Notes under the pieces: model-generated
Databases searched by the model: none
Told to the model about the DNA's origin: nothing
Seen by the model: the letters and a program-made list of their open reading frames with translations, nothing else
DNA from: Spirochaetota bacterium
GTDB taxonomy: Bacteria; Spirochaetota; Spirochaetia; Treponematales; UBA12059
Assembly: GCA_029565815.1 (NCBI GenBank)
Contig: JAKQNL010000228.1
Location: forward strand, 1-10,345
Length of the DNA stretch: 10,345 nucleotides
Reading direction: 5' to 3'
Program-made: the position numbers and the translations under genes
Shown: in pieces, positions 1 through 10,345 of the stretch
Layout: each line of letters starts with the position of its first letter
How positions within the stretch are numbered: the first letter of the stretch is position 1

Positions 1-465
1 CAATCCGGCGCTATGGTTGCTGGCACCGCGTGGGCCCTGTACATGGCAGAGGTTCACAAGGGGCTGCCCTACAAAAGCTTTGTGCGACCCCAGTCAGGCT
101 TGGTCGACGTGCGCGTCTGTGCCTTATCCGGCCTCCTACCAACCGATTTCTGTACCGATGGCACGGTAGCCCTCACCTTCCTGGAAGGAACCCAGCCTAG
201 GACCTACTGCGACCTGCACCAGTTCACCTCCGAGGAAGCGCAGAAAACCATACGCGACCTGGCAGGACAGCGGGAAATCCTGGGCGGTGGCATGGTGGAT
301 CCGGCTTTGCAAACGGACGACATCCCGGACCTGGACGAACTCTTGCGCCAGCTCTTGTCCGATACGCCCCCCTTGGATGCAAAGGACGAAGAACCGGTGA
401 CAGGGCCTGTGCCGCCTTCCGGCGCGCCTTCTGGCGAGCCGGAAACGCCGCCTATTCTTGATTGA
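1..465 (+). CDS. Class A penicillin-binding protein (PBP1A-type), C-terminal end, 5' truncated by the window
   Basis: The frame is open from base 1, so only the last 154 residues are present. The opening residues QSGAMVAGTAW and the following helix fit the end of a transpeptidase domain. Next comes the short C-terminal extension typical of class A PBPs of this group: VRVCALSGLLPTDFC, then FLEGTQPRTYC and DLH, with cysteines spaced as in related proteins. The last 50 or so residues are acidic and proline-rich (DIPDLDELL to the end) and probably disordered. The full enzyme would polymerise glycan strands and cross-link peptidoglycan in the periplasm, anchored by an N-terminal membrane segment that lies outside the window. 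The gene ends TGA TAG, two stops one after the other. The next gene starts 27 bases on, so the two are probably co-transcribed. The family call is firm. The exact subtype (PBP1A or PBP1C-like) cannot be settled from the tail. Confidence 0.85.
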   Translation, partial: QSGAMVAGTAWALYMAEVHKGLPYKSFVRPQSGLVDVRVCALSGLLPTDFCTDGTVALTFLEGTQPRTYCDLHQFTSEEAQKTIRDLAGQREILGGGMVDPALQTDDIPDLDELLRQLLSDTPPLDAKDEEPVTGPVPPSGAPSGEPETPPILD

Positions 466-484
466 TAGCAAACCGCGCGCTATC
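464..484 (+). other. Small inverted repeat between the PBP gene and the next gene
   Basis: GATAGC (464-469) pairs perfectly with GCTATC (479-484) around a nine-base loop. The repeat overlaps the PBP stop codon and ends eight bases before the next ATG. There is no T-run after it, so it is a poor rho-independent terminator. It could mark an RNA end or modulate initiation of the downstream gene, which has no visible Shine-Dalgarno sequence. A six-base stem can occur by chance. Confidence 0.3.
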
Positions 485-492
485 TTAACACC

Positions 493-1422
493 ATGAGCAG
501 TCAACGCGTCCGGCAGATACACCCTCATGGCATAGCCCTGTTTGTACTCCTTGCGCTCTGCATTCAGTTTGCAGCCGCACAAGAGCCGGTAGCTCCTGCC
601 CAAGCGCCGGCGCCTCTTTCCCAAGCGCCCACAGGCCTTGCCCTTCGGCCTTTTGTCGGACACGGCCTTTCCGACGGCGAACTGGACATCTTTTTCCGCA
701 TTGTAAACGATTACGCAAGCTCGTATGCAAGCGCACAAACCGGGGAACAGACGCGCTTCTATCTGGTTTCAGCAAGCCAGGAACAAAGCGAAGCAAGCAT
801 GTATCTGGATGGGCTCATCGACGCTCGCTCGGGCCTCTATGTGCTTGGCCTTAGCCTAAGCTTTTCGGACACGAGCCAAAAGCTCAGCGTATCAGCGTCA
901 TTTTCCTCGGTAAACGATGCCATATTGAGCACCAGGGCTCTGTGTACCCGCCTGTTCGCACTGCTGGAAACCTGGCAGTCGTCCGCCACGCCGGAAGCTG
1001 CTCCTTCTGCGGCCACTGCTATCAGCAGCCAGAGTGCACCGGAACTGTCCATGCTTGTAGGCAGCTGGAAGGGCGACAAAGGCCTAGGCACCGTACGCAT
1101 TTTCCCGGACGGCAGCGCGGTTGCGGTTCTTTTGTACGGCGGCATCGTGCGTTTACGGGTAACAGTCAGCGGAAGCGAAATCTATATCGAGCAGGCGGAA
1201 GCCAACAAGGCTGCCTTGTACCGGAGCGAAGCGGTAAGCCAGGCGCAAGCCGAACGCATCGTAGCCATGGCTCGGCCCATGCGCTGGATTTTCACCCTGT
1301 CCGCCGACGGTTCAACGCTGTTCGGTCTAAAGGAATCGCTTGCGGTGAGCGGCAGCACGTCGGACATACAGGTGGACAACCAGTTTACGCGGCCGGCACT
1401 CTGGTCGCGCGTAAGCCGCTAG
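493..1422 (+). CDS. Secreted or periplasmic two-domain protein of unknown function
   Basis: This is a 309-residue protein I do not recognise by name. Residues 1-29 look like a signal peptide: a basic start (RVRQ), a hydrophobic core (IALFVLLALCIQF) and a cleavage site after AAA, before QEP. Cys23 sits inside the core with Leu before it, so a lipobox is unlikely. A proline/alanine stretch (31-46) leads into a first domain (about 47-160). A Ser/Ala/Pro linker (about 162-184) follows. The second domain opens with LVGSWKGDKGLGTVRIFPDGSAV, a pattern of short strands that resembles small beta-barrel or lipocalin-like folds; that resemblance is my inference. ATG 493 is the only usable start after the in-frame TAG at 466-468. 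No clear ribosome site precedes it. Position 27 bases behind a PBP gene suggests an envelope role. Its TAG stop overlaps the stop of the convergent septum-protein gene. Confidence 0.7.
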   Translation: MSSQRVRQIHPHGIALFVLLALCIQFAAAQEPVAPAQAPAPLSQAPTGLALRPFVGHGLSDGELDIFFRIVNDYASSYASAQTGEQTRFYLVSASQEQSEASMYLDGLIDARSGLYVLGLSLSFSDTSQKLSVSASFSSVNDAILSTRALCTRLFALLETWQSSATPEAAPSAATAISSQSAPELSMLVGSWKGDKGLGTVRIFPDGSAVAVLLYGGIVRLRVTVSGSEIYIEQAEANKAALYRSEAVSQAQAERIVAMARPMRWIFTLSADGSTLFGLKESLAVSGSTSDIQVDNQFTRPALWSRVSR

Positions 1423-1871
1423 CTCGAACCAAAGCTATGCGTATCGGTTTTGCGGGAAAAGCGAAGCGAGCAAAGAAATACGACAGCGGCTGCGAACAAA
1501 CCACAGCACAATGCCCACAGCCTGGCTTCCTGCGGACGTACAGCGCCCTGTTCGCTCCGCAGCAGCACACGCCCCGCGTACGCAACATCCGGCTGAGCCA
1601 TAGACGGCAGCCGTACAGCCAGCTCGCCGTTGGCCAGATAGCCCAGGGCTCGGCCTTCCACCGCGATGCTGGACGGATCCGAGCGCAGGGCGTTCCAGCG
1701 CGCTTCCAGGTCTCTATTCCTTGCCTCTAGTTCGGCCACATTCTCGGCCATGCGCTGTGCATCATGGTGCAATACAGCCAGAGCACCCAAGCCTGTAGGC
1801 CCTGCAACAACAGAAATGAGGCTATAAACCAAAACGGACACCCAGAGCGCCGTGATTGCTGCGTGTTTCAT
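1419..1871 (-). CDS. DivIC/FtsB-like septum formation initiator protein with two membrane segments
   Basis: This is a 150-residue protein. It has an N-terminal membrane helix (about 5-24), then a heptad-like helix rich in A, E, L and R (about 35-63, including AELEARNRDLEARW). The motif RALGYLANGELAVRL (about 74-88) matches the signature that follows the coiled coil in the FtsB/DivIC family, where such proteins bridge FtsL and FtsQ in the divisome. Unlike typical FtsB or DivIC (about 100 residues, one helix), it carries a second hydrophobic segment (about 118-136) and a basic and polar tail. Both ends would therefore be cytoplasmic and the coiled coil periplasmic. The start ATG (1869-1871) follows an in-frame stop closely. 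An AAGG lies directly against the ATG, too close for a normal ribosome site. The gene faces the PBP-linked genes and diverges from the acidic-protein operon. It could instead be a generic coiled-coil membrane protein, but the GYL..GE motif favours the family. Confidence 0.7.
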   Translation of the reverse strand: MKHAAITALWVSVLVYSLISVVAGPTGLGALAVLHHDAQRMAENVAELEARNRDLEARWNALRSDPSSIAVEGRALGYLANGELAVRLPSMAQPDVAYAGRVLLRSEQGAVRPQEARLWALCCGLFAAAVVFLCSLRFSRKTDTHSFGSS

Positions 1872-1936
1872 CCTTGTTATTTACGGAATAAGCGGAACCA
1901 TTCTTGAGTTTGCTCCGTTCCTTATACAAGCGAATG

Positions 1937-1965
1937 TTGACAACGGCCCCGAGCGCTAGTACAGT
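1937..1965 (+). promoter_or_regulatory. Sigma-70 type promoter for the four-gene operon
   Basis: A perfect -35 box TTGACA (1937-1942) is followed by 17 bases and a -10 box TACAGT (1960-1965), which keeps the key first, second and last bases of TATAAT. It lies in the 207-base divergent region between the septum gene and the acidic-protein gene. The predicted transcript would start near 1972 and carry a leader of about 105 bases before ATG 2079. I saw no clear promoter of similar quality on the other strand for the septum gene. Confidence 0.75.
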
Positions 1966-2067
1966 TGTTTTGATTGGTTCCTGTTTTCATTTTGCCGGTA
2001 TGTGCCGATACTGAAACAGAATCATCCCGACGACGGAGCGCACGCGCCATGCAGAAAAAGACCCCGC

Positions 2068-2072
2068 AAGGG
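2068..2072 (+). promoter_or_regulatory. Ribosome binding site that decides the start of the acidic protein
   Basis: AAGGG lies six bases before ATG 2079. The longer open frame reaches back to TTG 1974, but that codon sits at the predicted transcription start and cannot be reached by ribosomes. An alternative in-frame ATG at 2049 has GGAG (2035-2038) ten bases ahead and remains possible. It would add ten residues. Confidence 0.6.
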
Positions 2073-2078
2073 TATGAC

Positions 2079-4328
2079 ATGCCCAACAGTACACCGGAAG
2101 CCGAACTCGAAAAGTACGGCGTTTGGGTAAAAGCCGAACCGCAGGATATCATCGAGGAGCCGGAAACCGAACACAGCTTGCTCGGCGCCGTCGACCTGTC
2201 GGCGGATGCGCTGCCGGACGGCGATCTGTCTATGGACGACTTCTCGATACCGGAGTTTTCGGATGAGCAGTCGGCTCAGGACTTGTCGCTCAATCTGTCC
2301 AAAGACAGCCTGTCCGAAATCAGCGCGCCAGCAGACGAAGAACCCTTCAAGCTGGACGACTTTTCCGTGGACCTGGACGAGTTTGAACCGGCGGCCGAAG
2401 CTGCAAGCGCCGATGCGGACGACGACGGACTAGAGCTTTCAGAGGAATTTGCGGATAGCGGCATGGATGCAGAGCGCATGCACAAGCCAGACATCACCCA
2501 TTTTGAGCCGGAGGAAGCAGTGCCGCCAACGGACAAATCCGACGAGCATGACGATATAACCGAACTGAGCCTGGAAGATTTTGGCCTGAGTGATGACAGC
2601 CCGGCGCCCAAAGCGGCAAGCGAAGACGATTCCGGCATGAGCTCTGTCGACTTATCGGAATTCGGCCTGGGCGACGACGAGGACGAACAAGCATCGGCGG
2701 CCAGCGAGGAAAACGATGGCTTTGACAGCCTGGATATAGACCTGGAATTCGACGACACCATCCCGTCTCCCGTAGAATCCGCTCCGGAAGAAGACATAGA
2801 TTTTTCGCTCGACGAGGTGGAAGAGCTTGGTAGCGGCGTTGCAGGTCTTGAAGCTATCGACGCTCCGCATCTGGCCGACACGGATGGCGGCATATCCATG
2901 GAAGATGTGACCGCCGAGTTCTCCGGGAAAGCGCAGTTCGGCTCCGCTCCATCGTCCAAACCCGAAGAAACCCGCTCGGTCGGCGTCGACTCATTCATCG
3001 ATGACGAATCCGCTTCGGACGACGACAGCATTCTTCCAGAGCTGGAACTAGAAGAAGTTTCGCTGGACCCGAAAGCAAAAATCTCCAAGAGCTTTGACGA
3101 CGTAGGCGCATTGGAACGCGAACTGGGTTCTGCGCCAGCAGCCGCAGGTCCGTCCAGCGACCTTTTAAAAACCATCGCATCCGAACTTGCTTCCATCAAG
3201 AGCGAACTGGTCAGCCTGCGCGGTCAGCTCGATGTGCTTAAACGAACTGAACCGTCGGATATAAAGACGGAACCGGAAGCGGAAGCCGCAGGCGGTTTTT
3301 TTGACGACGAGGAAGACGATACCATAGCCCTAACCGGGGACGAACTAAACAATATCCTTAATACCGCCGATTTCACCGAAGAAAGCGCGCACATAGAAGA
3401 CCGTGCCGACCAAAGCGTTCCTTCCGCCGCGGGCAGCGGCTTGTTGCCCGAGGACGGCGACTACCTGTCGCTAGAGAACAGCCTGTCCGACCATTTGCCC
3501 GACGAGATTTTGCCCGTTACCGAAGCGCCCGAAGATACCAGCTACCTGGAAGAAGAAAACCTTGACGAATTCAGCCTGGATACGAGCAGCCTAAGCGAAA
3601 ACGAGCTTGTGGAACCAGATCTGTCGGGCTTGGACCTGGCTGTAGAACCGGAAATCGTTATTGACGACAGCGACCTGGTCATCGATGCCGATGACGACAA
3701 GCTGGAAGTGCTGGAAGAGCTGGAAGCCGACGACGACAATCTGGAGGAACTGGTAAGCGAAGAGCCGGATATGGATGACATGGTCTTGTCCATAGACGCA
3801 TCCGACATGGAAACCAGCGCGGACGATGAAAGCCTAGAGGTCATCGAAGAACTGGAAGCAAGCGACGAGTTTGGCCTCGAGGAACTGGAAGCGGAAGACG
3901 ACCTGTCCGGCGATTTGCTTATGGAAGCAGCCGAGGACATCAACCTGGAAGCCGGAACCATAAAGCCCGCCTCCCCGGTTTCCGTTCATCCCGACGAACT
4001 GAGCATGAGCTTGGACGACAGCCTGTTTGTCGAGCCGGATCAGCATGTTATCGAAATGTCATCACCGCCTTTGGATATAAGCATGCCGGCTATGGGCTCG
4101 GACAAGGACGATTTCGTCCAGGAAGCTGTGCAGCCATCACAACGCCAGGTGGCACCAAGCGGCGGCAAGGAAGACGTGCCGGACAAACTGAAACACGACG
4201 TAAAATCCGTGCTCTTATACCTGGACCAGCTCTTGGCATCGCTGCCGGAAGAAAAAATAGAAGAGTTTGCTTCTTCTCAATATTATGATACCTACAAAAA
4301 ACTTTTTGATGAACTGGGGTTGCTCTGA
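2079..4328 (+). CDS. Large very acidic repeat-containing cytoplasmic protein, treponemal type, function unknown
   Basis: This is a 749-residue protein with no signal peptide or membrane segment, extremely rich in Asp, Glu and Ser. The short N-terminal block ELEKYGVWVKAEPQDI (9-24) looks ordered and, from memory, recurs in treponemal hypothetical proteins. Residues 50-280 hold loose repeats of an S-[ML]-[DE]-[DE]-[FV] type: SMDDFS 51, KLDDFS 91, SLEDFG 164, DLSEFG 191, FSLDEV 242 and ISMEDV 272. A basic/leucine heptad segment (about 361-389) predicts a coiled coil. Residues 538-608 contain two copies of an LEVLEELEADDD-like unit. The last 50 residues (LKHDVKSVLLYLDQLLASLPEEKI and on to YKKLFDELGLL) form a compact helical domain. 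The layout, ordered ends joined by a disordered acidic spacer, suggests an adaptor or scaffold; this is inference. It is the first gene after a strong promoter, and its TGA overlaps the next ATG (TGATG), implying coupled translation. Confidence 0.8.
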   Translation: MPNSTPEAELEKYGVWVKAEPQDIIEEPETEHSLLGAVDLSADALPDGDLSMDDFSIPEFSDEQSAQDLSLNLSKDSLSEISAPADEEPFKLDDFSVDLDEFEPAAEAASADADDDGLELSEEFADSGMDAERMHKPDITHFEPEEAVPPTDKSDEHDDITELSLEDFGLSDDSPAPKAASEDDSGMSSVDLSEFGLGDDEDEQASAASEENDGFDSLDIDLEFDDTIPSPVESAPEEDIDFSLDEVEELGSGVAGLEAIDAPHLADTDGGISMEDVTAEFSGKAQFGSAPSSKPEETRSVGVDSFIDDESASDDDSILPELELEEVSLDPKAKISKSFDDVGALERELGSAPAAAGPSSDLLKTIASELASIKSELVSLRGQLDVLKRTEPSDIKTEPEAEAAGGFFDDEEDDTIALTGDELNNILNTADFTEESAHIEDRADQSVPSAAGSGLLPEDGDYLSLENSLSDHLPDEILPVTEAPEDTSYLEEENLDEFSLDTSSLSENELVEPDLSGLDLAVEPEIVIDDSDLVIDADDDKLEVLEELEADDDNLEELVSEEPDMDDMVLSIDASDMETSADDESLEVIEELEASDEFGLEELEAEDDLSGDLLMEAAEDINLEAGTIKPASPVSVHPDELSMSLDDSLFVEPDQHVIEMSSPPLDISMPAMGSDKDDFVQEAVQPSQRQVAPSGGKEDVPDKLKHDVKSVLLYLDQLLASLPEEKIEEFASSQYYDTYKKLFDELGLL
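3690..3902 (+). repeat. Two diverged copies of an acidic leucine-rich unit inside the acidic protein
   Basis: The segment starting at 3690 (DDDKLEVLEELEADDDNLEEL) and that starting at 3822 (DDESLEVIEELEASDEFGLEEL) align over about 26 residues with a period of 132 bases. The DNA has drifted at third positions, so this is an old protein-level duplication and not a recent repeat likely to recombine. Confidence 0.65.
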
Positions 4329-5301
4329 TGGGTTTACTTGCACGAGCAGAACTCGGACGGAATAAGCCGTCCGAGCCGCAGCGCAGCGAAGGGCTTTTGT
4401 CGCTGAGCCAAAAAAAAAAGCCCCGATAGTCCTTGAAGAGCCGTCTTTTGGACTAGCAGGCGAGTCGGCTCTTGCAGAACCCAAACAGACAGTATCCACC
4501 GAACACGAACAGAGCCTGGAAACGTTTTCAACTATCGTCGCAAACGCTACGAACAACTTGCTCCTGCCCTATGACCTCATCGAAGCTTTTAGGAGAAGCA
4601 GCATAGCAAGCGGAGCGCTGTTTGCTATGCATGGGCAGGATGCATGGACAGCCTATGCTTCCTATGGCGTACAGCGCATGGTTGGGCCCTTACAGGGTTT
4701 TAATCCGCATGCGCCCTTTGTCATTGGCGGCCGTGCAAGCACGCTCACCCTAGCCTTACACAACGAGCGTGCGTACTGCGTTTTGTTCGGGACCGTACAC
4801 CATGGACAGGAATGCGGCCGCATACTGGCCCACCGATCGGCTTCATGGAAGCTTCCAGAACTACACGGCGAGCGGCCATCCCAATCGGAGCGCTTTGACG
4901 CTACGGCCTTTCCGCGCTCGGTGCTCAATGATGCAACAAAACGCCAGGCTGAGCACATAGCGCTGGCTGTTATGGATTTGTCCTTGTTCATAGCGTATAT
5001 AGCCGAAAGCCGTCCGTCCGCGCACTCAGACCAGGTGCAGGCCGATATATACACGCTCCTGTCTATGGCGGTTAAAGATACCGGCTCGGTCTTTTTGCTG
5101 CCGGATAGGCGCATTGTCATCGTCCACTATTCGCACCACAGCGCTGACCCGGAGCTTTTGTGCGGACAGCTGTACGCATCCGTTCGTAGGAGCATAGGAG
5201 CGCCGAAAGCCCTTTCCGTAGGCTGTTCTGCGGGTATTACCGTCAACACCGAGGATCCAGCCAGTTTTGGCATCCTGGTAGCATTCGCTAGTAGGCTGTG
5301 A
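4328..5301 (+). CDS. Conserved treponemal-type protein encoded in two frames joined by a -1 shift at an A10 run
   Basis: ATG 4328 overlaps the TGA of the acidic gene and has GGGG (4316-4319) eight bases upstream. Read in that frame it gives MGLLARAELGRNKPSEPQ up to QKKK and stops at TAG 4427-4429 after 33 codons. The next frame back is open from 4366 to 5301. Slipping one base back at AAA AAG (4415-4420) continues with APIVLEEPSFGL and produces 324 residues. Without the shift, the first usual start in the long frame is TTG 4558, which has no ribosome site and would discard about 46 residues of coding-looking sequence. Residues 78 onward (LLPYDLIEAFRRSS) begin the better-folded part. The end (TGSVFLLPDRRIVIVHY, then ALSVGCSAGITV) vaguely recalls a degenerate GGDEF-like alpha/beta domain without the signature loop. 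The function is unknown. No signal peptide is seen. The TGA overlaps the GTG of the first Maf gene (GTGA). Confidence 0.7.
4352..4375 (+). other. Perfect nine-pair hairpin early in the frameshifted gene
   Basis: CTCGGACGG (4352-4360) and CCGTCCGAG (4367-4375) are exact reverse complements around a six-base loop AATAAG. The hairpin starts about 24 bases after the ATG and ends 35 bases before the A10 run. It is not followed by a T-run, so it is not a standard terminator. In mRNA it would form within the first 16 codons and could slow ribosomes or affect initiation. Confidence 0.6.
4410..4473 (+). promoter_or_regulatory. Candidate programmed -1 frameshift element: slippery A-run plus pseudoknot
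   Basis: Ten A (4410-4419) end in A AAA AAG (4414-4420), with AAA and AAG as zero-frame codons, the same heptamer as the E. coli dnaX shift site. Six bases later, TAGTCC (4427-4432) can pair with GGACTA (4450-4455). AAGAGCCG (4436-4443), inside that loop, can pair with CGGCTCTT (4466-4473). Together these make an H-type pseudoknot with loops of 3, 6 and 10 bases. The zero-frame stop lies in the first stem. A competing stem GGGCTTTT (4391-4398) with AAAAGCCC (4416-4423) would cover the slippery site. AAGGG (4389-4393) is too far upstream to act like the dnaX internal Shine-Dalgarno. RNA polymerase slippage on the A-run is an equally possible mechanism. Confidence 0.55.
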
Positions 5302-6815
5302 AACGGGACAGCAACCAGTACCATTCACGCTATAATCCAGAGCGGGAGGCATCCCGCTTCCTGGACAGTTCCCTTGGCTCTAAACGCCCGTCCCTGGCCA
5401 TACTCATAGGGCCTGGCCTCAACTACCTTGGATCGGAACTAAAGCTTAGGCTGCCCGGCTGCCATGTCATTGCGCTACAGCCTTGTTCGCACTTCGACCA
5501 AGAGCTTGTGCACCCAGCCGACCGCTATTGGAGCCCATCCTGTGCATACGCGCCCGATTCAGTTATACAGGAAGCCCTGGGCGAAGGCAGGGCTTTAGGC
5601 GGCGTGTGCGTGCTTGAATGGGAACCGCTTGTCCGCGAGTATCCACACGAATGCGATGCGCTTCGAACCATGGTTAAAAACCTGCTTTCAAAAGAAGCAG
5701 CTCGATCGGCAACCAGCTCGTTTTGGGCTAGGCGCTGGCTTAGAAACTGCGGGCGTTTTGTAGAAGGTATCCGTCAGACCGCACAGGTGGTCGTAGGAAG
5801 CTCGCCTATTATCATAGCCTGCGCTGGCCCTAGCCTGGAGCGATGCATTCCGTTCATCAAAACCGTTCGCGACAGGGTAAGCCTGTGGTCCCTTGCATCC
5901 GCGCACGCTAGCCTTAATGCACACAATCTGGAAGCCGATGCGTTGATTACCAGCGACCCAGGCACCTGGAGCGGCTTACATGCTAGAACTTTGGCAGCGG
6001 GCGCAGGAAGCAATGGCCCGGTGCTGTTCGCTACGCCAAGTGCGTACCTACCCACTGCTGTATTGGAACGAGTAGCTATAGTGCCCTTTGAAACCGGCAT
6101 GCCCATGGAAGAGGATGCGCTTGCCCTGGTAGGGCTCAGCGCTTGTGCCCGGGCGGCTTCGGGGACCGCTTCCGGTAGCGCAGCTATGCTTGCCCTACAA
6201 GCTACAAGCGCTAACGTGTACCTGTGCGGCCTGGACCTTGCCGCCTTGGATTATCGCGACCACGCACAGGGCTATGCCTTTTGGTCTTTGGACCAGGAAA
6301 AGGCCACAAGGCTTGGGCCAACCTACAGCATAGCGGCCGGCCGCGTGTACGAGCACTATCCGCAGCAGGATAGTCCATGGCGACTGTCCAGGGCATTTAA
6401 CACCTATGCACACGAACTATCCATCCTGTTTGCGAACGAAAAACGGCTTGTGCGGGTAGAGCCATCCGCGCTAGGCCTTACAGGGAATACTATATCTGCC
6501 GACATGCTATCCCTATGCGCACGCGGAATAAAACCGCGCTTTATCACGCAGACTATAGTTTCCACAAAGCCACATGCAGAGAAGCTGTATCATTCCGTTT
6601 GTAAGCGGGCATGCACAGCGCTAGAGAACGCAGTGGCACGCACAGTGCCGGTGGATGCGGAAAGTAGCACGGAGCTCTTTGCTCTTGGCGGCAAGGCCCT
6701 TGCATCCGCCATAGCCCTAGCCGCACGGGGCGAACTTGGACACGATGTACTTACACAGGCTATTACGGCCCTACAGAGCGCGGCAAAACCTTTGGATAGC
6801 GGAGCATCGGTATGA
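5298..6815 (+). CDS. Maf-type motility-associated protein (DUF115 / MptE-like), first of two
   Basis: This is a 505-residue protein. HSRYNPEREASRF (9-21) is the conserved N-terminal motif of Maf proteins. A Rossmann-like strand and loop follow (ILIGPG, 35-40). The DUF115 core runs from IIIACAGPSL (171-180) through LEADALITSDPGTW (211-224) to GSAAMLALQA (293-302) and NVYLCGLDLAAL (306-317). The family shares its core fold with archaeal 6-hydroxymethylpterin diphosphokinase MptE. In Campylobacter, Aeromonas and similar bacteria, Maf proteins are implicated in placing nonulosonic acid sugars on flagellin in the cytoplasm before export. That role here is inference. Compared with its neighbour it lacks about 50 residues before HSRYNP, and GPG replaces the GLGGG loop. 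It may therefore be a diverged partner and not an equal enzyme. The start is GTG overlapping the previous TGA; its own ribosome site is weak (TAGG, two bases ahead), so coupled translation is likely. Confidence 0.85.
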   Translation: MKRDSNQYHSRYNPEREASRFLDSSLGSKRPSLAILIGPGLNYLGSELKLRLPGCHVIALQPCSHFDQELVHPADRYWSPSCAYAPDSVIQEALGEGRALGGVCVLEWEPLVREYPHECDALRTMVKNLLSKEAARSATSSFWARRWLRNCGRFVEGIRQTAQVVVGSSPIIIACAGPSLERCIPFIKTVRDRVSLWSLASAHASLNAHNLEADALITSDPGTWSGLHARTLAAGAGSNGPVLFATPSAYLPTAVLERVAIVPFETGMPMEEDALALVGLSACARAASGTASGSAAMLALQATSANVYLCGLDLAALDYRDHAQGYAFWSLDQEKATRLGPTYSIAAGRVYEHYPQQDSPWRLSRAFNTYAHELSILFANEKRLVRVEPSALGLTGNTISADMLSLCARGIKPRFITQTIVSTKPHAEKLYHSVCKRACTALENAVARTVPVDAESSTELFALGGKALASAIALAARGELGHDVLTQAITALQSAAKPLDSGASV

Positions 6816-8509
6816 CCAAGGACGAGCTGTTTGAGCGCAATATGCTTGCCCTGTCATCAACGCAAAGCATAGAGGCCTCGATTTTGATACGGAACGCCCA
6901 GCCGGGCGGCATGAAAACGGAATGGGCAAAAGACGGATCCATAGTGCCGGTACTAGAAGCCAAGGACGGTAGGAGCATAGCGCTACACTCCCGCTACAAT
7001 CCACAAGAACAGGCAAAAAAACTTGCATCCACCTACGGCCAACAAGGCTTTTATGTATTCCTAGGCCTTGGCGGCGGTTATGAAATACTATCAATACTGC
7101 AACGGTCGCCGGTAAGCCGGGGCATCATCATCGAATACGACGCAGCCTATATGCGCGAGCTTTTGTCCACCGTAGACCTAACGCCCATACTGGCCGACCG
7201 TAGGCTATCCCTGTGCGTCGATATGGAAGAAACAGCTTTAGTAAACCTGATAGCGCAACGATTTGTGCCTGCGGTAACCGGCAACCTGGTTACCGTTCCG
7301 CTTAGGGCTCGGGTAGACGCAGACCCGGAACGTTTTACGCAGGCGGTTACGGCGGTGCGTAAAGCTATGGCTGCCGCCTCGGATGACTATTCCGTACAGG
7401 CATATTTTGGCAAGCGCTGGTTTGCAAACATTATCCATAACCTAGAACACGCATCGCGGCCTACCCCGCCAGTCATGCCTATACGTGAAGCTATTATAAG
7501 CGCCGCAGGGCCTTCTCTGGACGATGCCTTGGACACTTTGAAAAACCGCAGCCGGCAGCAATACCTCATAGCTACCGACACCAGTTTGCGCGCTCTCCTC
7601 AGCTATGGCATACAACCGGATGCGCTTGTATCCATAGACTGCCAGCACATCAGCTACTACCACTTCATGGATGGATGCCCGCCGGACATTCCGGTTTTTT
7701 TCGACCTGGCATCCCCGCCAACCGTTACAAGGCTAGCCAAAAAGCCGTATTTTTTCTCTTCCGGCCATCCATTGGCCCGATACCTAAGCTCGCAGTTCCG
7801 GGCATTTCCGTCATTGGATACATCGGGGGGGAACGTAACCCACGCTGCCGTTTCGCTTGCGGTTTTTCTTGGCGCATCGCGCATTACGGTGTACGGCGCG
7901 GATTTCTCCTACCCGCTGGGTTCAAGCTACGCGCGCGGAACCTACATCTATCCATACTTTGACCGACGCCAGAACAGGCTTAGGCCGCAGGAAGCGCTTT
8001 TTTCCGAATTTTTATACCGCAATCAGCAGCTCATACGGCAGGAAGACAGTGACGGATTTTTCCGCTACCTGACTAAGCCTCTGATTGCGTACCACGAGCG
8101 CTTGTCCGAATTGCGGCTGTCCTCTTTATCGTCCATCAGCCGCGTCCAGGGCCGCGGGCTTGCCGACGAAGCTTGTACTGGAGTCGCGCGCGCAGATCGC
8201 GGAACAACGCGCTCGGACATTGGCTTAGCGGCCGCGTCGGTATTTTCCTCAGGGCCATTATTCAAAAGCGCCAGGGGCTTTTTGGAAGATTACCTAGATG
8301 AATTGCAGGGCATGAAGCGCATCAGCGCGCCCGCAAGCAGTTTTATGGACACGCTAACGCATAAAGAAAAAGATATATGGACTACCCTCTTGCCCGTAGC
8401 GGCCGCGATACAGCGGGAATACCGCGACAAGCCTCCTACGACCGAACAGGTGCTGGAAGAAACCCGCTTGTGGTGCATGGGCATTGTCCGCTCGGAACTG
8501 GACGCCTAG
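6812..8509 (+). CDS. Maf-type motility-associated glycosyltransferase-like protein (DUF115), second of two
   Basis: This 565-residue protein has the fuller Maf layout: an N-terminal region, HSRYNPQEQAKKL (59-71), a Rossmann loop FLGLGGGYE (83-91), then the DUF115 core. The core shows AAGPSLDDAL (231-240), LIATDTSLRALLSYGIQPDA (252-271) with SIDCQ (274-278), SGGNVTHAAVSLAVFLGA (338-355) and VYGADFSYP (360-368). A helical C-terminal region of about 180 residues follows. The GPSL loop, the acidic ATD and SID sites and the GADFS strand are the features expected of an active family member. The likely task is transfer of an activated sugar to flagellin in the cytoplasm. The ATG overlaps the previous TGA (ATGA) and has its own GGAG (6801-6804) seven bases upstream. 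The stop overlaps that of the convergent HExxH gene. A run of seven G (7825-7831) falls in the codons for the SGG motif. No flagellin gene is in view to confirm the substrate. Confidence 0.85.
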   Translation: MTKDELFERNMLALSSTQSIEASILIRNAQPGGMKTEWAKDGSIVPVLEAKDGRSIALHSRYNPQEQAKKLASTYGQQGFYVFLGLGGGYEILSILQRSPVSRGIIIEYDAAYMRELLSTVDLTPILADRRLSLCVDMEETALVNLIAQRFVPAVTGNLVTVPLRARVDADPERFTQAVTAVRKAMAAASDDYSVQAYFGKRWFANIIHNLEHASRPTPPVMPIREAIISAAGPSLDDALDTLKNRSRQQYLIATDTSLRALLSYGIQPDALVSIDCQHISYYHFMDGCPPDIPVFFDLASPPTVTRLAKKPYFFSSGHPLARYLSSQFRAFPSLDTSGGNVTHAAVSLAVFLGASRITVYGADFSYPLGSSYARGTYIYPYFDRRQNRLRPQEALFSEFLYRNQQLIRQEDSDGFFRYLTKPLIAYHERLSELRLSSLSSISRVQGRGLADEACTGVARADRGTTRSDIGLAAASVFSSGPLFKSARGFLEDYLDELQGMKRISAPASSFMDTLTHKEKDIWTTLLPVAAAIQREYRDKPPTTEQVLEETRLWCMGIVRSELDA

Positions 8510-10056
8510 CGCAATCGGCCAAAGTACCCTGCTTTGATTCCCCAGTTTTCGTAAAGATGGGAACTAAGCATAGCTGCGCTTGTATTCGCGTGCGCGATGA
8601 CCTCGTCCTGAACGCTGCTCAGCCACTGCGCTGTATCCGGGTAGGCTTGTATGAGGCGCGGAAACACGCTGCGCTGTAAGTACGCGCCTGCATCCGAAGC
8701 AGCCTGCTGAACAAGGTAGGCCTGCAGTTCGTTGACGCACAGGTAGTCATCTTCTATATCGTACTTGCGCCAAGCCAAATGCAAAAGCCAAAATTGCCGT
8801 ACTGTTTTAGGCATGTCATCCCACAGCTTCTGGCAAAGCTGGCGGTATGCATCGTCCTGAAAAAAGAGGGCGTGCGACGCTTCGTGGTTGGCAAATAGAA
8901 ACCTAAGGCTTGGGGTGCTTTCCCTGGCTATCGATATGATTGCGCCTGTACCTTCGCTTAGGCTGCCGGAAGTATTCTTAACTAAAATACCGTAGCGCAC
9001 AAGCAGATCCAGTAATTCCAGTTCTTGCGGGTTTAAGTTAAAGCCGGATTCCAAGGCTAGTTTGTAAAACGAGCACAGGGTCCACACCGGATAATCGTGG
9101 GCGTTCCACGCATGTAATCCAGCCAGTTCCGCATCCGTTGCCAGGCGGCCGCGAAAGCCGGGTTTTTCCGCAAAAAAAGCCAAGCGCTTAAGAAATTGAT
9201 CCTGTACGGCGTAGTCGGCAAAATCCAGCACCAGCGTATGCGGCAGCACATCCCATCGGTACAAATCGTAGGGCTTGCCTTGTGCACCAATGGCCAAAAG
9301 GCTGTATAGATCCGCCGGCATGGGTCCGCCAGCCGGAAACAGGGCGCAATCCAGAAAGACGCTATCGCTCTGTACGGAAAATGCTTTGGTGCCAAGTAGG
9401 GCGGCCGGGACAGCCAGATAGGAACCGGCTTTAAGGCTAGCGGTCCAGGTTTTTTCTGCATGTATGCGCACGGTGCCGGTTTTGGCTAACGCTATGCTTA
9501 GGTACAATGCACGATCCTGTGGTGGCGGGAAGTCTAGCTGCACAGGCTGGCCACTTTGTGCGTCCATGCGTGCAGACAGGCTACTGGACAAGCGCGCAGT
9601 TGTGGTGCTAGACCAGCCAAGAAAGCGCGGAAGGACTTCTACCGAACTAAGACGGGCTGTACCGCTTCCTAGGAGCTCGAGGGAAAACGCTTCTACCGGC
9701 ATACTTAGTGGAATATGGTGTGCAAGCGCTGCGTTTGCATAAGCGGGCAGCTGTATGCGTAGGAAGGCTTCCTTGTCGCCGGCCTTGGAAAACAGGCTAA
9801 GGCTTAGCGGCTGCGTGGACTGCAGACTAAGCACCAGGTCGTAGTGTGGCTGTGCGTCGAGGAGCGGCTTTACGCGGTAGCTACGGACACTGTGCTCGTC
9901 ATCGAGTACAGCTGCATACTGTGCATCCTCTGCAAGCAGCACAAGCTGCTGGCCATCTGGCCCGCGAGTTTCCACACCGGCAACAGTCTGGGCAAAACAC
10001 GATGCTGCAAAAACGACACAGGCTGCACAGACAGCCGTCAGCATGGGTTTATTCAA
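8506..10056 (-). CDS. Secreted HExxH protein, putative zinc metallopeptidase, possibly a lipoprotein
   Basis: This is a 516-residue protein. The N-terminus NKPMLTAVCAACVVFAASCFAQ is a signal sequence. FAASC (16-20) could serve as a relaxed spirochaetal lipobox with Cys20 as the lipidated residue, or signal peptidase I could cut after FA or FAQ. Residues about 30-300 look like beta-rich domains. The C-terminal third is helical and contains FLFANHEASHALFF, with HEASH at 391-395 (bases 8872-8886). NELQAYLVQ follows about 48 residues later, and Glu443 could be the third zinc ligand, the gluzincin arrangement. I do not recognise a named family. The start is TTG 10054-10056, chosen because it supplies the Lys of the signal n-region and overlaps the upstream gene by eight bases. 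ATG 10042-10044 is the alternative and would leave an uncharged n-region. There is no convincing ribosome site for either, so coupled translation is likely. Confidence 0.7.
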   Translation of the reverse strand: MNKPMLTAVCAACVVFAASCFAQTVAGVETRGPDGQQLVLLAEDAQYAAVLDDEHSVRSYRVKPLLDAQPHYDLVLSLQSTQPLSLSLFSKAGDKEAFLRIQLPAYANAALAHHIPLSMPVEAFSLELLGSGTARLSSVEVLPRFLGWSSTTTARLSSSLSARMDAQSGQPVQLDFPPPQDRALYLSIALAKTGTVRIHAEKTWTASLKAGSYLAVPAALLGTKAFSVQSDSVFLDCALFPAGGPMPADLYSLLAIGAQGKPYDLYRWDVLPHTLVLDFADYAVQDQFLKRLAFFAEKPGFRGRLATDAELAGLHAWNAHDYPVWTLCSFYKLALESGFNLNPQELELLDLLVRYGILVKNTSGSLSEGTGAIISIARESTPSLRFLFANHEASHALFFQDDAYRQLCQKLWDDMPKTVRQFWLLHLAWRKYDIEDDYLCVNELQAYLVQQAASDAGAYLQRSVFPRLIQAYPDTAQWLSSVQDEVIAHANTSAAMLSSHLYENWGIKAGYFGRLR

Positions 10057-10345
10057 AGGCCAACATGCTCCGCACCACGAGCTGGGCTACCTGGTACACG
10101 CGCTCCGGACTCAGGCTGCCGTCCACCGCGGTAAGCATGCCCCAGCGGCCGGAAAAATCTTCAGGCAAACTGGGAAGGGCCAAAAGGATACGGGTCAGGT
10201 TACGGTCGGAGGGTTCCAGCTGGCGGTTTTTCGCAAAAATGGTCGACGCCGTAGCACGAAGGAATCCGGCCAGCGCTATATGGAAGAAGAAGTGGTCATC
10301 CTTGAAGGCTGCACCGCCAAGATCGCTGAGCGTATGCTCCATCCT
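10049..10345 (-). CDS. C-terminal part of an unidentified gene, perhaps nucleotidyltransferase-related, cut by the window end
   Basis: The frame is open to the right edge, giving 98 residues and a TAA stop (10049-10051). A Met is the second visible codon, but the frame continues before it, so the true start is probably outside. The segment is mostly helical: a hydrophobic helix HFFFHIALAGFLRATASTIFAKNRQLEPSDRNL, then LLALPSLPEDFSGRW. Patterns of the kind 'NRxxxPSxR...LxxLPxLPxxF' recall the helical C-terminal parts of DUF4037 or adenylyltransferase-like nucleotidyltransferases, from memory only. It overlaps the start of the HExxH gene by eight bases, so the two are translated as a pair. Confidence 0.5.
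   Translation of the reverse strand, partial: RMEHTLSDLGGAAFKDDHFFFHIALAGFLRATASTIFAKNRQLEPSDRNLTRILLALPSLPEDFSGRWGMLTAVDGSLSPERVYQVAQLVVRSMLAFE

Follow-up and report, generated by a model that had tools for sequence, protein, structure and literature searches.

How does a cell obtain a full-length protein from a gene that is split over two reading frames, and what is the run of adenines at the junction of the two parts doing there? This question is raised by a 10,345-nucleotide (nt) stretch of DNA from a member of the Spirochaetota (GenBank assembly GCA_029565815.1, contig JAKQNL010000228.1, positions 1 to 10,345; "the window" below always means this whole stretch), which belongs to a draft metagenome-assembled genome (1.95 Mb in 452 contigs; completeness, 67%). 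The gene lies in an operon, behind a gene for a long acidic protein and ahead of two genes for MptE-like proteins, and its two parts meet at a run of ten A (A10). The original prediction, made from the letters of the window, had taken the junction for a dnaX-like programmed -1 ribosomal frameshift site in a gene other than dnaX. On comparing the locus with its relatives, we favor the interpretation that A10 serves as a programmed site of slippage for RNA polymerase rather than for the ribosome, and give this reading a probability of roughly 0.6; that slippage by one or the other machine is programmed here appears highly probable.

The anatomy of the junction held up when recomputed. The upstream part begins with an operon-coupled ATG (4328 to 4330) that overlaps the stop codon of the preceding gene (TGA, 4326 to 4328; hence TGATG). 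In this zero frame, translation ends after 33 residues at a TAG (4427 to 4429), two codons ahead of which the run, of exactly ten A, comes to its end; its last six A and the G that follows form an A AAA AAG heptamer in phase for -1 slippage. From that G onward the -1 frame is open up to the stop codon ending at 5301, and joining the 31 residues read ahead of the shift to the 293 residues behind it gives a protein of 324 residues, as originally calculated. The downstream part has no credible start of its own, the earliest candidate being a TTG 46 codons in. The run is the sole one of more than seven A in the whole window, and the draft genome has only two other A10 sites.

Retention of the run among relatives

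MptE-like proteins were used as anchors to locate the same locus in relatives, which were counted as separate rows despite kinship and without lineage weighting; family and genus labels are the grouping codes of the analysis tool. The family of the window was represented by 23 genomes, of which 20, from ten genera and with a locus GC content of 0.32 to 0.69, were testable (G001, which is 57% complete, gave a weak MptE-like match that is apparently another gene, and the locus is truncated by a contig end in G011 and G021). All 20 have A9 or A10 at the junction, despite this range of GC content and an identity of the 3' protein to that of the window of 10 to 22% in the 18 aligned relatives. The comparison proposed with the original prediction, namely, whether relatives keep the split or have an intact frame, thus gave 19 split genes and 1 in-frame gene, each with its run: 17 have A10 and need a -1 shift, two have A9 and need a +1 shift (G020 and G017), and one (G006) has A10 but needs no shift, its long frame being in phase. 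The run occupies codon phase 1 in 19 of the 20 and phase 2 in G006, and is followed mostly by G but also by C and T. In both nonproductive frames a stop tends to come early past the run (mean ranks of 0.20 and 0.22, versus an expected 0.5; n = 19 related genomes), and the first possible start in the 3' part lies anywhere from 2 to 101 codons past it. The 3' frame is just 129 codons long in G012. G004 has the locus on another contig as well (L123:361-370), in a slightly diverged copy that probably reflects a strain mixture in the assembly and also retains A10.

Such runs are rare in these genomes. A scan of the 23 family genomes recovered 64 A10 hits, counting overlaps, of which 18 are the split-gene site and one more is the second G004 copy; in the drafts G003, G005, G018, and G019 the split-gene run is the only A10 found. 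Likewise, among 20 genomes of other orders scanned for bounded runs of exactly ten A, G225, G227, and G228 have no other A10.

Beyond the family, we tested 34 of 40 loci fetched from four other families of the same order (32 by script and L104 and L105 by eye; L074, L077, L081, L087, L094, and L102 were dropped). All 34 encode a single frame, and a run of at least nine A occurs near the start in only one, L103, where an in-frame A11 (L103:2146-2156) occupies a place similar to that in the window. Six of the 34, short unbroken genes (L078, L079, L085, L086, L088, and L091; 115 to 180 residues), were considered as hidden run-less splits and rejected; each ends 41 to 115 nt ahead of the MptE-like match and is, therefore, genuinely short. 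Other orders of the class contributed 60 loci, and the 55 that could be tested (42 of them by script and 13 by eye; L220, L223, L225, L236, and L240 were dropped) comprise 25 split genes, 9 in-frame runs of A10 to A12, and 21 loci with neither. All 25 splits need a -1 shift; their runs are A10 in 21 cases, A9 in two, and A11 and A12 in one each, and lie in codon phase 0, 1, and 2 in 4, 13, and 8 cases, respectively.

Altogether, the 109 tested loci comprise 44 split genes, 11 in-frame runs, and 54 single frames without a run. The splits are spread over 14 families, and every one of them has A9 to A12 at the junction (A10 in 38, A9 in four, A11 and A12 in one each) and never a shorter run, with a -1 shift, equivalent to one extra A, needed in 42. 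The site lies 11 to 49 codons from the start. Since 11 loci keep A10 to A12 with the long frame in phase, the run is retained even where no rescue is needed, although three of these (L184, L190, and L226) are AT rich, where runs are commoner. The run is possibly ancestral to the class, to judge from its spread. A tree of its gain and loss (108 rows; 57 of 165 columns usable; 61 of 104 inner branches open) gave 17 changes between run and none and 13 between split and other, and settles nothing; its usable columns come almost entirely from the acidic protein, since a second block was found for two rows only. Ten loci were also fetched from other classes of the phylum: L249, inspected by eye, has the same kind of neighbor and a similar start with no run of at least nine A. 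In L241, A9 occurs elsewhere.

Both parts of the gene bear marks of coding. Differences were counted by codon position in eight pairs, seven of them between genomes and one between the contigs of G004; in the open frame of the 3' part they are biased toward the third position in all eight (e.g., G004/G018, with 64, 44, and 112 differences at positions 1, 2, and 3). For the 5' part, where counts are small, the bias is seen in six of eight pairs, with zero differences between the G004 contigs and 1, 2, and 2 in G008/G016. The 54 run-less loci encode a single frame that mostly opens with the same MGLL-type N terminus, which makes the long protein the product common to the loci. The short product of the split loci varies in length from 15 to 78 residues and is, for this reason, a weaker candidate for a conserved protein of its own.

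Which machine slips on the run

Because an out-of-frame A10 has been kept in many families, spirochaete cells very probably rely on deliberate slipping for the full-length protein. In the mechanism that we favor, RNA polymerase would slip on A10 during transcription, mostly adding one A; the fraction of messages with eleven A would be read through into the long protein, whereas the remaining messages would meet a stop soon past the run and yield the short peptide. The run would thereby set the share of messages that give full-length protein, and the ribosome may contribute some -1 slipping on the same tract. For the polymerase speaks the length of the run, which is never below nine A, though six or seven would suffice for a ribosomal heptamer; according to PMC1088944, selection against slippage by the polymerase becomes apparent, in a large share of genomes, at nine A. 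The run also persists while its codon phase (0, 1, or 2), the next base, the flanks, and the GC content change. Moreover, insertions during transcription of A/T runs are mostly of single nucleotides, according to PMC5574713, and the need for one extra A in nearly all splits fits the polymerase for this reason.

Several observations weigh against this reading. Two A9 loci of the family need the opposite (+1) shift, cases that are indistinguishable from assembly differences, and about half of the relatives (54 of 109) do without a run. PMC1088944 infers that slippage at long A/T runs is suppressed in Borrelia burgdorferi, another spirochaete, so that the behavior of the polymerase in this class is not a given. 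A rule stated in PMC3711429 assigns a single ubiquitous direction of shift to the ribosome, and the near-constant -1 direction, together with the RNA structure downstream of the run in the family, suits the ribosome equally well or better.

The leading rival, which we consider possible, if rather doubtful, is a programmed -1 shift by the ribosome on A AAA AAG or A AAA AAA within the run, aided by downstream RNA structure. The heptamer is in phase in the window and in 13 of the 17 family loci with A10 and a -1 shift, but in only 6 of the 25 splits of other orders (19 of 42 overall). The 50 nt past the run are predicted to be more structured than control windows in the family (mean z, -1.55 versus -0.09; Wilcoxon P = 0.0001; n = 19), with a smaller difference in other orders (-0.78 versus -0.20; P = 0.06; n = 25); upstream of the run, structure is slightly raised in the family (P = 0.03) and not in other orders (P = 0.82). 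Shine-Dalgarno-like words stand 4 to 20 nt upstream of the run in 7 of 25 other-order splits, against a background of 0.125, but are absent from the window and found in 3 of 19 split family loci, which is close to the background of 0.12. Also against the ribosome stand the run, which never falls below nine A, and the two A9 loci that need +1.

The pseudoknot of the original prediction has a similarly mixed record. Its two crossing stems, of six and eight pairs, all Watson-Crick and beginning 6 nt past the heptamer, are present as described, and a comparison with 300 dinucleotide shuffles gives P = 0.003; among 515 sliding 60-nt windows of the contig, three reach this score, some of which may be views that overlap the structure itself. 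In relatives, we searched the 60 nt past the run for Watson-Crick pairs (G-U pairs being unscored), with at least five pairs in both stems and 60 shuffles each. None of 19 relatives reaches 14 pairs, and the pseudoknot was, therefore, rejected as a conserved stimulator, being private to the window; smaller candidates were found in G015 (12 pairs; P = 0.033), G006 (10 pairs; P = 0.115), and G014 (10 pairs; P = 0.066). What stands of the original prediction is thus the shift in a gene other than dnaX, which looks real, functional, and programmed, whereas the ribosomal heptamer and pseudoknot are not what is conserved, and a dnaX-type ribosomal cassette is not supported as the general mechanism.

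The alternatives that had been listed beside it (an assembly error, a true mutation, or a phase-variable A run) fit badly with a junction shared by 44 loci and a near-constant direction of shift. Phase variation, in which slippage during DNA replication would toggle the gene between cells, is highly improbable: A runs are hypermutable, and A9, A10, A11, and A12 are all seen, but random lengths predict about one-third of loci in frame and the rest shifted in both directions, whereas the family has 1 of 20 in frame, 42 of 44 splits go the same way whatever the length of the run, 38 of 44 are exactly A10, and the diverged second copy in G004 is A10 too. Run length and frame do not, then, vary freely between relatives in the manner of a contingency locus. 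Still less probable are two separate genes, of which the second would start on its own codon; possible TTG, GTG, and ATG codons exist within the 3' part, but the first of them has no constant place with respect to the run, and the N terminus and the remainder form one frame in 54 relatives. Finally, an assembly error or decayed gene, such as a 67% complete draft in 452 contigs might hold, is refuted, to the extent that assemblies of other genomes can refute it, by the same junction at 43 other loci from other genomes and the codon-position bias in both parts of relatives.

The operon and the likely consequences of slippage

The operon runs from the acidic protein through the split gene (4328 to 5301) to the two MptE-like genes (Table 1). 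A conserved C-terminal motif marks the acidic protein, and a neighbor with that motif is found upstream of the split gene in relatives; the protein itself has no match in Pfam or NCBIfam. The N-terminal MGLL..A..GLL motif of the split gene is widespread in the class. Its 3' part in the window has no Pfam match, the 19 aligned 3'-part members gave one weak Pfam match only (a model of unstructured regions; E = 0.049), and three relatives with an unbroken gene gave none; a profile search of the protein against PDB up to an E value of 1 recovered no match, and no phage match was found. The glycosyltransferase role of the MptE-like/Maf proteins is predicted from the names of the Pfam and NCBIfam families. 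A contig scan with 10 MptE-like proteins recovered 24 loci, 14 of them in metagenome genomes labeled Spirochaetes, Spirochaetae, Spirochaetota, or Spirochaetales and 10 in other groups, whereas a contig scan of named genomes with a single protein as the query found no relative. On the minus strand, positions 8506 to 10056 hold a 516-residue open frame without a Pfam or NCBIfam match.

Table 1. Coordinates of the operon genes and junction elements in the window
Feature	Position	Strand	Remarks
Upstream acidic protein gene	1974..4328	+	Long; stop overlaps start of split gene; true start lies within this frame
Split gene, 5' part	4328..4429	+	Zero frame, 33 residues; N-terminal MGLL..A..GLL motif; codon-position counts in relatives
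A10 run (putative slippage site)	4410..4419	+	Contains A AAA AAG (4414-4420); A9 to A12 at 44/44 split loci
Split gene, 3' part	4420..5301	+	-1 frame, 293 residues; fast evolving; third-position bias in relatives
H-type pseudoknot candidate	4427..4473	+	Stems 4427-4432/4450-4455 and 4436-4443/4466-4473
First MptE-like gene (Maf-type glycosyltransferase-like)	5298..6815	+	GTG start overlaps stop of split gene
Second MptE-like gene	6812..8509	+	Same operon

The GTG of the first MptE-like gene (at 5298) overlaps the codon that ends the long frame (5299 to 5301), so that slippage probably also affects translation of the MptE-like gene through coupling. Among the 20 family loci, the MptE-like gene motif was found in 15, of which 13 have a candidate start ahead of the end of the long frame and nine have only such starts; in G002 and G009 the sole candidate lies 23 to 31 nt beyond that end. 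We tentatively extend this, at a probability well below even, to a class-wide rheostat, in which the frequency of RNA polymerase errors at a single A10 would gate a glycosyltransferase-like operon in many spirochaete lineages. If this were true, elongation speed, nucleotide supply, or transcription factors would set the levels of the full-length protein and its coupled enzyme, and the site would be old, kept amid near-total change around it and lost or turned in frame in some families. Annotation pipelines would likely call the split gene broken or miss it. The loci with a split, an in-frame run, or no run provide a natural comparative series for asking why there are two products or a gated operon.

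A10 tracts in dnaX and comparison with known slippage systems

Most known bacterial programmed slippage is in dnaX, insertion sequences, and a few secretion genes, and among the 10 to 15 titles listed per search of open-license papers (of up to 2,622 hits each), none reports the split gene or slippage in a spirochaete operon, which is weak evidence of absence. The dnaX genes of the family themselves carry such tracts: in nine of 20 genomes (L131, L132, L133, L137, L140, L143, L145, L146, and L149) an A10 in phase 1 lies at residues 392 to 427, with a -1 stop 0 to 1 codons and a +1 stop 1 to 6 codons later, an arrangement like that reported for Thermus dnaX, where the polymerase slips (PMC5009743). 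Measured per genome against control positions, the nearness of the -1 stop is the stronger signal (at most 0.05 of positions as near), that of the +1 stop being only suggestive (0.03 to 0.19). These runs are likely tau/gamma slippage sites, and the lineage thus probably already uses A10 tracts. The dnaX of the window's genome has its A10 late (residue 542) with no close stops, 10 of the 20 family dnaX genes have none, and 3 of 21 dnaX loci from other families of the order have A10 with an immediate -1 stop. Elsewhere, an FtsK/SpoIIIE-family gene of G002 has A10 (L126:1489-1498) at residue 323, ahead of the alpha domain at 392; as a stop is met within about eight codons of the start of the run in each of the other frames, slippage there would yield an N-terminal fragment. 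Two A10 sites of G013 (L114 and L115) directly follow a run of C's.

The split gene can be compared with four groups of characterized or proposed cases. (i) With Escherichia coli dnaX, a -1 ribosomal site with A AAA AAG, an upstream Shine-Dalgarno-like stimulator, and a downstream stem-loop, the window shares the in-phase heptamer and the structure that follows; unlike there, the pseudoknot is not conserved, and the heptamer and its phase vary over the class. (ii) In Thermus thermophilus dnaX, transcriptional slippage on A9 likewise gives two products, and stops soon follow the run in the unproductive frames, as they do in the family of the window (PMC1088944 and PMC5009743). The split gene differs in being another gene, in that the short product comes from its standard frame and the long one would come from slippage, and in that its site is early (11 to 49 codons) rather than late. 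(iii) The two-ORF dnaX genes with A10 in the GeneTack clusters, for which polymerase slippage has been proposed, also consist of adjacent open reading frames joined at A10 into a long product; the split gene is not dnaX, and the part of PMC3711429 available names no such spirochaete gene. (iv) In Shigella mxiE and spa13 and Citrobacter rodentium tssM1 (A11), two frames are joined into a long product by slippage on a run of T or A, as would happen here, with an efficiency in Citrobacter of about 20 to 25% (PMC4256274 and PMC1088944). No sequence relation of the split gene to these turned up, with no dedicated test made, and its site is kept over many families of the class. Conserved over at least 14 families, this A10 tract would rank among the more widely conserved cases of slippage.

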